Of a stretch of 64,000 nucleotides of DNA, positions 62,152 through 63,580 are shown piece by piece. The stretch's first letter is position 1, and every line of letters starts with the position of its first letter. Source of the DNA: an uncultured Spirochaetales bacterium (lineage in GTDB: Bacteria > Spirochaetota > Spirochaetia > Sphaerochaetales > Sphaerochaetaceae); contig CALXKL010000009.1 of NCBI GenBank assembly GCA_944388965.1, forward strand, positions 1 to 64,000, written 5' to 3'. The notes under the pieces are model-generated. The model did not search any database, had not been told where the DNA came from, and saw only the letters and a program-made list of their open reading frames with translations. The position numbers were made by a program, and so were the translations under genes.

Positions 62152-62264
62152 GTCAACAAGAAATTTTCACTTTTTTTTCGAGGAACTCAATTGATTTATC
62201 TTGAACAAAATTGATTTTTGAGCAAAGCCGATGCAAGCTTGTCGATAAACAGCCGCTTTTATGG

Positions 62265-62270
62265 TAGAAT
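62265..62270 (+). promoter_or_regulatory. -10 box of the OadB-like gene
   Basis: TAGAAT with TCGATA (62242-62247) as a weak -35 at 17-bp spacing. ATG62281 follows after 10 nt without a Shine-Dalgarno. Confidence 0.5.
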
Positions 62271-62280
62271 ACGCTCCGTT

Positions 62281-63381
62281 ATGGATACAAACGAAATTCT
62301 GAACATCATCATGATCGGCGTAGGTTTCATCCTCATATACCTCGCCATCAGGAAGGAGATGGAGCCCACGCTCCTTCTCCCAATGGGTTTCGGAGCGATT
62401 CTCGTAAACCTGCCCGGTTCGGTCATGCTTCAGGACAATGCGATTCTGCAGTGGCTGTACAATGTGGGTATCGAGAGCGCAGAGGCGTTCCCGCTTCTTC
62501 TCTTCATCGGAATCGGCGCCATGATCGATTTCGGGCCGCTCATCTCCAAGCCGTGGCTGATCTTCATCGGAGCTGCAGGACAGGGTGGAATCTTCATCTC
62601 CATGATTCTTGCCTCCGCACTGGGATTCCCGCTCAACGATGCGGCCTCCATCGGCATCATCGGAGCAGCTGACGGTCCTACCGCCATCCTGGTCTCGCAG
62701 CGCCTGCATTCCAACTACGTCGCAGCGATCCTCATCGTCGCATACTGCTACATGGCTCTCGTGCCAATGATACAGCCCGTGGTCCTCAAGGCCACGACGA
62801 CGAAGAAGGAGAGGGCCATCCAGATGCACTACAAGCCGGGTGCCGTCTCCAAGACCACGAGAATCGTCTTCCCGATCGTCACCACCATCGTGTGCGGCAT
62901 CATGGCTCCGGACTCCGCGGCCCTTGTCGGAATGCTGATGTTCGGCAACCTCCTGAGAGAGTGTGGTGTCCTCGACTCCCTCTCCAGGGCCGCGCAGGAC
63001 ATGCTCAGCCCGCTCATCACGCTGCTGCTCGGTCTGGCCATCAGCCCGATGATGAAGGGAGAGGCTCTCCTCCAGCCCGCGACGCTGATGATCATGGCCT
63101 TCGGTCTCGTGGCCTTCATCTTCGACACGGCCTGCGGCGTAATCTTCCTCAAGGTGATCAACATCTTCCTGCCGAAGGGCAAGAAGGTGAACCCGCTTAT
63201 CGGCGGCGCTGGAATCTCGGCATTCCCGATGTCCAGCCGCGTCGTCCAGAAGGTCGGAATCGAGGCGAACAAGCAGAACCATCTGCTGCCCTTCGCACTT
63301 GGTGCGAACGTCTCCGGACAGATCGCATCCGTTCTTGCCGGCGGACTCCTGCTTTCGGAGCTCCTGCCCATCTTCGGTTGA
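62281..63381 (+). CDS. Sodium-pumping decarboxylase beta subunit (OadB family)
   Basis: 366 residues from ATG62281. Polytopic membrane protein with the OadB core motifs AADGPTAILVSQRL, IGIGAMIDFGPLISKPW, and the C-terminal GAGISAFPMSSRVVQKVG with GANVSGQIASV. In oxaloacetate and related decarboxylases the beta subunit couples carboxybiotin decarboxylation to sodium export. No alpha (carboxyltransferase) or biotin-carrier gene lies beside it here. A small single-helix protein follows at once and may be the gamma-like partner. Confidence 0.9.
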   Translation: MDTNEILNIIMIGVGFILIYLAIRKEMEPTLLLPMGFGAILVNLPGSVMLQDNAILQWLYNVGIESAEAFPLLLFIGIGAMIDFGPLISKPWLIFIGAAGQGGIFISMILASALGFPLNDAASIGIIGAADGPTAILVSQRLHSNYVAAILIVAYCYMALVPMIQPVVLKATTTKKERAIQMHYKPGAVSKTTRIVFPIVTTIVCGIMAPDSAALVGMLMFGNLLRECGVLDSLSRAAQDMLSPLITLLLGLAISPMMKGEALLQPATLMIMAFGLVAFIFDTACGVIFLKVINIFLPKGKKVNPLIGGAGISAFPMSSRVVQKVGIEANKQNHLLPFALGANVSGQIASVLAGGLLLSELLPIFG

Positions 63382-63396
63382 TAAGGAGGTATGAAA

Positions 63397-63525
63397 ATGG
63401 CCAATGCAATTGCAATTGCACTTCAGAGCTGGGGCCTGCTTGCATGCTCCCTCGGCATCCTCTTCGTCGCCCTCCTTGTGCTGAACAAGGTCACAGGCAG
63501 GAAGAAGGACAATAACGACAAATAA
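63397..63525 (+). CDS. 42-residue single-helix membrane protein, OadG-like position
   Basis: Starts MANAIAIALQSWG, then a hydrophobic helix (about residues 9-30) and a short basic-polar tail ending KKDNNDK. AAGGAGGT lies 6 nt before ATG63397, a strong ribosome site; the ATG two codons earlier touches it and is rejected. Gamma subunits of sodium-pumping decarboxylases are small proteins with one N-terminal helix, encoded with the beta subunit. This one is shorter, with no zinc-binding tail. Position suggests a gamma-like partner; sequence alone cannot prove it. Confidence 0.75.
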   Translation: MANAIAIALQSWGLLACSLGILFVALLVLNKVTGRKKDNNDK

Positions 63526-63547
63526 GTGGTGCACCACATGATATGCA

Positions 63548-63580
63548 CAGGGCCCGGTCGACCGGGCCCTGTCTTGTTCT
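63548..63580 (+). terminator. Bidirectional terminator between oadB operon and hflX
   Basis: A 10-bp perfect GC-rich stem CAGGGCCCGG/CCGGGCCCTG with loop TCGA, followed by TCTTGTTCT on the plus strand. It sits between convergent units. Confidence 0.8.

Follow-up and report, generated by a model that had tools for sequence, protein, structure and literature searches.

The closest described systems include the OadA-OadB-OadG complexes of Salmonella and Klebsiella (6iva, 6iww), in which, according to PMC7274780, the helix of the gamma subunit binds beta and its tail binds alpha. Phe43 is the last gamma residue visible in the Salmonella structure, and gamma without residues 61-84 retains beta binding with severely reduced alpha binding. 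The same paper describes Glu40 of beta as critical for decarboxylation and not for Na+ binding; for R304A and N311A, it gives a moderate inhibition of decarboxylation and no strong effect on Na+ binding. The methylmalonyl-CoA and glutaconyl-CoA decarboxylases are described there as having a small, gamma-homologous membrane subunit. For E. faecalis, the gene order oadHDB-citCDEFX-oadA has been given, with OadH described as a functional counterpart of OadG (PMC6193673, PMC3198936). NCBIfam holds a family of OadG-related small proteins, OadG_rel_small (NF040909), for which a search of the open-licence literature found no describing paper. Veillonella has, in addition, a short epsilon subunit; NCBIfam contains an entry NF047904.

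The window analyzed here is a stretch of 64,000 nucleotides from an uncultured Spirochaetales bacterium (GCA_944388965.1, contig CALXKL010000009.1, positions 1 to 64,000, forward strand). Near its end, two genes of the + strand form a unit. The first gene, oadB2 (62281..63381, + strand), encodes a 366-residue OAD_beta protein. This protein passes the cut-offs of both PF03977 (E 1.3e-137, 459 bits against 31.6) and TIGR01109 (E 2.4e-114, 382.1 bits against 190.6), which bears out the initial annotation of an OadB-like pump gene. A fold match was obtained to 6iww_A with a Z of 46.0 and 359 residues superposed at an rmsd of 2.4 A, with lower Z values for AspT (16.9), CitS (14.6), NapA (9.1) and NhaP (8.6). 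The Na+-site residues Asp203, Ser382 and Asn412 of Salmonella correspond to Asp131, Ser313 and Asn343 in OadB2. OadB2 is a clear member of the OAD_beta family of Na+-translocating decarboxylase beta subunits (PF03977, TIGR01109), and coupling of carboxybiotin decarboxylation to Na+ export is predicted for it.

On the opposite strand, the unit is flanked by a gene set for a binding-protein ABC transporter and by the terminal part of a GTPase-like gene, identities that correspond to sub-threshold Pfam matches, with the GTPase-like gene read as hflX by eye. A weak sigma-70-like site (62242..62270, + strand, 9/12 matches) is located upstream of oadB2; two such sites were found against 0.7 expected. 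It is the sole promoter-like site upstream and ends about 10 nt short of the ATG, and no ribosome site was seen ahead of the ATG between 62242 and 62281, so that the oadB2 message would be as if nearly leaderless. The unit is closed by an intrinsic-terminator-like hairpin with an 11-pair stem and a T-rich tail (63547..63572, + strand), which taken alone is weak evidence, because two such sites were found against 1.4 expected.

Directly downstream of oadB2 is a gene of 42 codons (63397..63525, + strand, stop codon 63523-63525), here called mini-gamma. A Shine-Dalgarno sequence AAGGAGG (63383..63389, + strand) is present in the DNA 7 nt ahead of the ATG at 63397, which is the likely start, because the ATG at 63391 is only 1 nt from the Shine-Dalgarno sequence and thus too close. 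The encoded protein displays a single hydrophobic stretch and a basic C-terminal end without His or Cys. The initial annotation had noted a strong ribosome site followed by a 42-codon gene for one hydrophobic helix with a basic tail, and all of these features were recovered.

A Pfam scan of mini-gamma gave no match, and the protein lacks the combination of helix, linker and tail that characterizes PF04277. Against OadG_rel_small it scored 17.4 bits with a 44-residue start and 16.4 bits with the 42-residue start, under the curated cut-off of 25 bits in both cases. The same profile was matched at E <=0.01 by 25 of 40 small proteins sampled from related loci. Mini-gamma has in common with this family its length, the single helix, the basic end and the position, as a one-helix small protein directly 3' of an OadB-type gene, and differs in the score of 17.4 bits and in having no adjoining gene for alpha or a biotin carrier. 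RefSeq protein WP_012515617.1, encoded beside such an OadB, bears the name OadG-related small transporter subunit. The size of the protein had been described as unannotated, which does not hold, since NF040909 and this RefSeq entry already cover such proteins. We conclude that mini-gamma is, as judged from its sequence, a divergent relative of NF040909.

A profile of 40 small proteins aligned to an OadG profile of 17 sequences with 95.2% (E 2.9e-8) over the OadG helix region. In the controls, none of 25 OadB windows exceeded 9.1%, reversed profiles gave 9.0% and 7.9%, and 60 column shuffles stayed at or below 2.1%. Taken as a profile, the small proteins are thus homologous to the OadG helix region only, the alpha-binding tail being absent. 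This agrees with the earlier proposal of a small membrane partner in the place of gamma that lacks its tail, and relates mini-gamma to the OadG N-terminal half. A structural model of the window pair read through as one chain had a mean pLDDT of 86.9 and a pTM of 0.86, and displayed the small protein as one helix (373-406) with pLDDT values of 93-94 over 381-400 and of 79 and 72 in the end blocks of the helix. The fusion itself forces the two proteins close together, so the model does not show the docking site; the fold-match listing from the 6iww_A search has no chain for a small helix and is uninformative on mini-gamma.

The pair shares with the Salmonella and Klebsiella complexes the beta fold, the Na+ site and a gamma helix predicted to bind beta. 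It differs in that its gamma has neither linker nor tail, its beta belongs to a separate clade (B2, see below) and the alpha gene is not adjacent. The likeness to the methylmalonyl-CoA and glutaconyl-CoA decarboxylases, as far as these are treated in PMC7274780, lies in a separate biotin carrier and a small gamma-homologous membrane subunit, but the delta subunit of these enzymes carries the tail. The window pair is built from known kinds of protein; it is a variant in which gamma is divided and alpha does not adjoin.

Conservation of the small gene was analyzed in relatives of OadB2, of which 80 of 568 confirmed loci from 84,980 species genomes were listed, and in the genomes of 61 relatives. 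Among the matches listed, this gave 101 distinct OadB2 loci with an OadB identity of at least 57%. A lenient scan, which required an ORF of 28-160 residues with a hydrophobic 19-mer and a start between 20 nt before and 170 nt after the stop of oadB, found a small one-helix ORF at 98 of these 101 loci, as compared to 20/101 reverse complements, 41/505 shuffles and 1/36 OadB1 loci. Stricter criteria, which required an ATG, an SD-like site, at most 100 residues and a stronger helix, were passed by 95 of the 101 listed loci versus 2/101 reverse complements, 0/505 shuffles and 0/36 OadB1 loci. The 98 ORFs from the listed loci start with ATG in 97 cases, have an SD-like site in 97 and measure 37-54 residues in 78; in 92 of the 98, at most 19 residues follow the best helix window. 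The three loci missed were L051, where the small gene sits further downstream, and L060 and L109, which seem to have none. At 13 more distant loci from the order of Peptoniphilus indolicus (L193-L204 and L211), a small gene was present in all 13, the 34-residue one of L196 having been found by reading the sequence by hand. Thus, the small gene is conserved beyond chance and the two genes are kept as a unit; a lack of conservation in relatives, which the initial annotation had named as a refuting result, did not occur. Three small proteins (L018, L019 and L101, of 89, 94 and 97 residues) carry a similar-looking N-terminal extension of about 50 residues. No conserved neighbour genes of oadB2 stood out when ORFs around the 80 listed loci were clustered by single linkage; the largest cluster was an ABC exporter family, identified by scanning a representative, at 24 of the 80 loci with mixed strands, and the remaining clusters covered at most 9 of the 80 each. 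The survey is coarse, because the ORF picking missed 9/80 of the OadB2 genes themselves.

Two kinds of OadB were distinguished, one of the ordinary type (OadB1) and one like that of the window (B2). In quick trees, the two were split by a single branch with an SH-aLRT value of 100, both when 40 + 45 rows were sorted by identity and when 26 + 34 rows, low-identity ones included, were sorted by signature. In the B2 clade, 20 positions are near-invariant and set it apart from OadB1. Glu68, Ile82, Ala129, Tyr184, Ser212, Asp282, Phe315 and Gln347 were each found in 99/99 B2 proteins; the acid at position 282, expected in helix T9, occurred in 0/40 of the other type, and Gln347 is near Asn343. The seven signature residues other than Ser212 were checked at the 13 distant loci from the Peptoniphilus order. 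The 12 full-length OadB proteins carry them with a single exchange (Ile82 to Val), the truncated protein of L211 has those within its covered part, and the signature was seen in 0/7 OadB1 proteins of the same order. A clean identity gap between the two types, 50 to 58% in the first set, was rejected as a general mark, because B2 proteins reach 50% in this order; the clade was therefore defined by signature and tree. Across phyla, B2 thus forms a single clade with a signature of its own.

The residues E40, D203, Y229, N373, G377, S382, R389, N412 and S419 (Salmonella numbering) are present in 99/99 B2 proteins. On the cytoplasmic face, T148 is replaced by Ile in 99/99 of the B2 set around the window, and R258 is kept in 4/99, R304 in 7/99 and N311 in 52/99. 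Arg304 and Asn311 are retained by many deep B2 proteins of the Peptoniphilus order and by those from complete operons. Among the rows read later, Arg304 is lost in L199, L202, L204, L211 and L216, and the B2 proteins of L085 and L087, which lie beside oadA, have lost both R304 and N311.

No match to alpha, a biotin carrier or OadG was obtained in the window or in C9:56000-72000, which agrees with the alpha subunit having been reported as missing here, and the arrangement of an oxaloacetate decarboxylase holoenzyme, with alpha and carrier encoded together with beta and gamma, is not found at the window. A second, ordinary set is present in the same genome (G000) on contig C7, with oadG (98 residues), oadA (819 residues) and oadB1. 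OadA (C7:48644-51103, - strand; L011 8645-11104) has three tandem biotin domains, which account for all three Biotin_lipoyl matches in the genome, and the normal oadG (C7:51116-51412) scores 67.5 bits to PF04277, a family that also has weak matches at other places in this genome. One of the possibilities raised earlier, that alpha is encoded elsewhere in the genome, is thereby confirmed, and the search for oadA and biotin carrier genes that had been proposed finds both in this set. A normal oadG elsewhere had been named as a finding that would speak against the small gene; such a gene exists, but since it belongs to the C7 set, together with another oadA and an oadB1, the small gene is not thereby shown to be spurious. 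In relatives, OadA has one, two or three tandem biotin domains. Tandem domains were considered as a mark of a second beta and rejected, as two domains also occur in G004, G007, G011 and G013, which gave no B2 match.

Genes for alpha or a biotin carrier were located within about 1.5 kb at 2 of the 80 listed B2 loci, both flanks being complete in 72 of them, as compared to 36 of 43 OadB1 loci. The two B2 loci are L085 and L087, where the pair precedes an apparently complete oadA-oadG-carrier-oadB1 set; L072 adds acetyl-CoA carboxylase-like genes when the full locus is counted. At the seven OadB1 loci without nearby alpha or carrier matches (L127, L129, L131, L133, L134, L136 and L138), several show by eye an oadG-oadB pair adjoining a helicase-like gene; separation from alpha is thus not special to B2. 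Fragments aside, B2 is the sole OadB match in eight genomes (G009, G067, G069, G081, G099, G242, G282 and G284). Five of these, G067, G069, G099, G242 and G284, hold genes for alpha and/or a biotin carrier elsewhere with no adjoining beta (L241, L242, L243, L217 and L249, the last opening at a contig start), which fits a supply in trans without proving it. The gamma of G067, with helix and tail, scored 26.8 bits, just short of the PF04277 cut-off, and G009 breaks off within oadA at a contig edge. No decarboxylase-type carrier was recognized in G282, where the candidates were pyruvate carboxylase-sized frames and lipoyl enzymes, or in G081, which gave a single weak match besides an ACC-type carrier. 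A Biotin_lipoyl protein occurs in 49 of 50 genomes picked for B2, a family that counts lipoyl enzymes also. Such a match was absent in one of 81 genomes picked for B2 (G071), which we do not take as proof, because this is a draft genome of unknown completeness. Four loci without beta (L241, L242, L243 and L246) encode a soluble Carboxyl_trans protein, scanned in L241 and L243, together with a biotin carrier and an OadA-like protein; these soluble sets resemble a transcarboxylase.

In a few distant relatives, B2 and the small gene lie inside citrate-fermentation pump operons, which suggests a role for the window pair. In two genomes of the Tissierellia order (L215 in G286, L213 in G283), they are found within a citrate-lyase cluster in the order soluble tail protein, biotin carrier, B2-type oadB, small gene and oadA, the oadB of L213 reading as two frames. 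A Streptococcus equi plasmid record (L238) has a hypothetical protein, biotin carrier, oadB, OadG-related small transporter subunit, citDEFX and oadA. The OadB of L238 carries the B2 signature, and the B2 proteins in operons with oadA, biotin carrier and citrate lyase have the same signature, Asp282 included. The small protein of L215 scored 50.5 bits to NF040909 and weakly matched OAD_gamma positions 3-36 (E 0.0075), and the adjoining soluble protein weakly matched positions 58-73 (E 0.012). The soluble proteins of L238, L215 and L217 align to the OadG tail with 96.2% (E 2.6e-9), a value from three sequences without a control. A model of these three sequences, which a diverged protein could escape, found no soluble tail protein in the window's own genome or in five relatives. 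The gene order oadHDB-citCDEFX-oadA of E. faecalis resembles that of L238, which adds the small gene and a B2 OadB. By analogy, the OadH-OadD-OadB-OadA complex of E. faecalis may be of the same design, with a soluble OadH and OadB, and E. faecalis would be predicted to have the small gene as well. The window's genome differs in that the three-sequence model found no OadH-like gene there.

Taken together, the window pair probably represents the membrane half of a Na+ pump that is driven by carboxybiotin, fed in trans and equipped with a divided gamma. OadB2 would be the carboxybiotin-decarboxylating Na+ transporter, and the 42-residue protein would be the beta-binding gamma helix without the alpha-holding cytoplasmic tail. 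The two may form a beta3gamma3-like complex in this organism, which would take carboxybiotin, without a tight tether, from the OadA encoded on C7 and its three biotin domains; decarboxylation would thus be coupled to Na+ export through a second outlet. We count in favour of this the small gene at 98/101 listed loci, Glu40 and the Na+-site residues in 99/99, the profile match to the OadG helix, the operons with oadA and carrier (L215, L213 and L238), the OadA or carriers without beta in five B2-only genomes, the organism's own OadA, the fused-chain model, the Salmonella gamma helix and tail data, the OadG-tail-like soluble proteins and the E. faecalis OadH. Against it count the proximity of alpha or carrier genes at only 2/80 listed B2 loci as compared to 36/43 OadB1 loci, the seeming lack of a small gene at L060 and L109, the failure of the three-sequence model to find a soluble tail protein in the own genome or five relatives, the losses of R304, N311, R258 and T148, those of R304 and N311 at L085 and L087 included, and the three genomes G282, G081 and G071 without a recognized decarboxylase-type carrier. 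It is conceivable, with clearly less confidence, that the lone B2 pairs form a plug-in or repurposed Na+ transporter, no longer part of the decarboxylase complex, which works either as a biotin-free carrier or as an outlet shared by several soluble biotin enzymes. Equally tentatively, gamma would then have been cut to its membrane helix, and beta would have lost residues of carboxybiotin turnover and gained Asp282, Glu68 and Gln347. On the favoured interpretation, gamma of the decarboxylase Na+ pumps could be divided between a beta-holding helix and an alpha-holding soluble tail. This would give a meaning to the annotated small protein OadG_rel_small, predict a fifth, overlooked subunit in enterococcal-type complexes and set apart a clade of putative pumps, B2, that is common in gut anaerobes and mostly encoded apart from any alpha.

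The initial annotation had also considered that beta works in a different complex with the small protein, for which there is still room, supply in trans being better supported; its observation is confirmed and its interpretation partly supported. Such a complex could contain a biotin-free Na+ transporter that arose from a decarboxylase beta subunit, for example a Na+/H+ exchanger with the CPA fold, in which the ion site was kept, new polar residues were gained and mini-gamma merely stabilizes. We regard this as rather doubtful. The missing alpha-binding tail, the 78/80 listed B2 loci without an alpha or carrier match within 1.5 kb, the genomes without a recognized decarboxylase-type carrier, the lost residues R258, R304, N311 and T148, the new invariant ones including the acid at 282 and Gln347, and the lower-Z fold likeness to AspT, CitS, NapA and NhaP would suit it, whereas Glu40 and the core residues in 99/99 B2 proteins, the same signature in operons with oadA, carrier and citrate lyase, the Biotin_lipoyl proteins in 49/50 genomes (lipoyl enzymes counted too) and the retention of R304 and N311 by many of the lone B2 proteins from the Peptoniphilus order argue against it. 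It is improbable that the pair instead regulates the C7 complex, with OadB2 or mini-gamma mixing with OadB1 and OadG and thereby lowering or redirecting pump activity. A second OadB match over the cut-off, pieces included, is found in 46/50 B2 genomes, and mini-gamma could compete with OadG for the beta surface, but B2 is the sole OadB match in eight genomes and, across phyla, a single clade marked by its signature. Finally, the notion that the small ORF merely follows oadB by chance is refuted in practice by the lenient and strict scans at the listed loci, the profile homology to OadG and the RefSeq name of a small protein beside OadB, even though the ORF is short, the lenient scan was positive in 20/101 reverse complements and the codon differences among eight near relatives are not overwhelmingly silent (for example, 7 silent and 13 not in L099, 18 and 9 in L016).

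The peptide of OadB hairpin-1 (consensus SIGIIGGADGPTAIF) was observed to recur in unrelated proteins, where it stands isolated and spans about 20-25 residues. Fragments of this kind gave 23-24 rows in 17 of 50 genomes, of which 18 loci were read (L220-L237), and 61 Spirochaete genomes contained nine stand-alone matches, one of them weak, in seven genomes. A literature search for the string IIGGADGPT found no paper. By eye, the peptide often lies in parts of its hosts that look extracytoplasmic, past signal or lipoprotein peptides or between two helices; L226-L229 and L233 gave no sign of location. The hosts include an M56 peptidase with two copies, a ribonuclease-domain protein and, in the window's own genome, a patatin-like protein (G000:C14:20727-20798, within the ORF at L012 4455-6791). 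At one B2 locus (L051/L235), the hairpin-1 peptide is present in the small gene itself.
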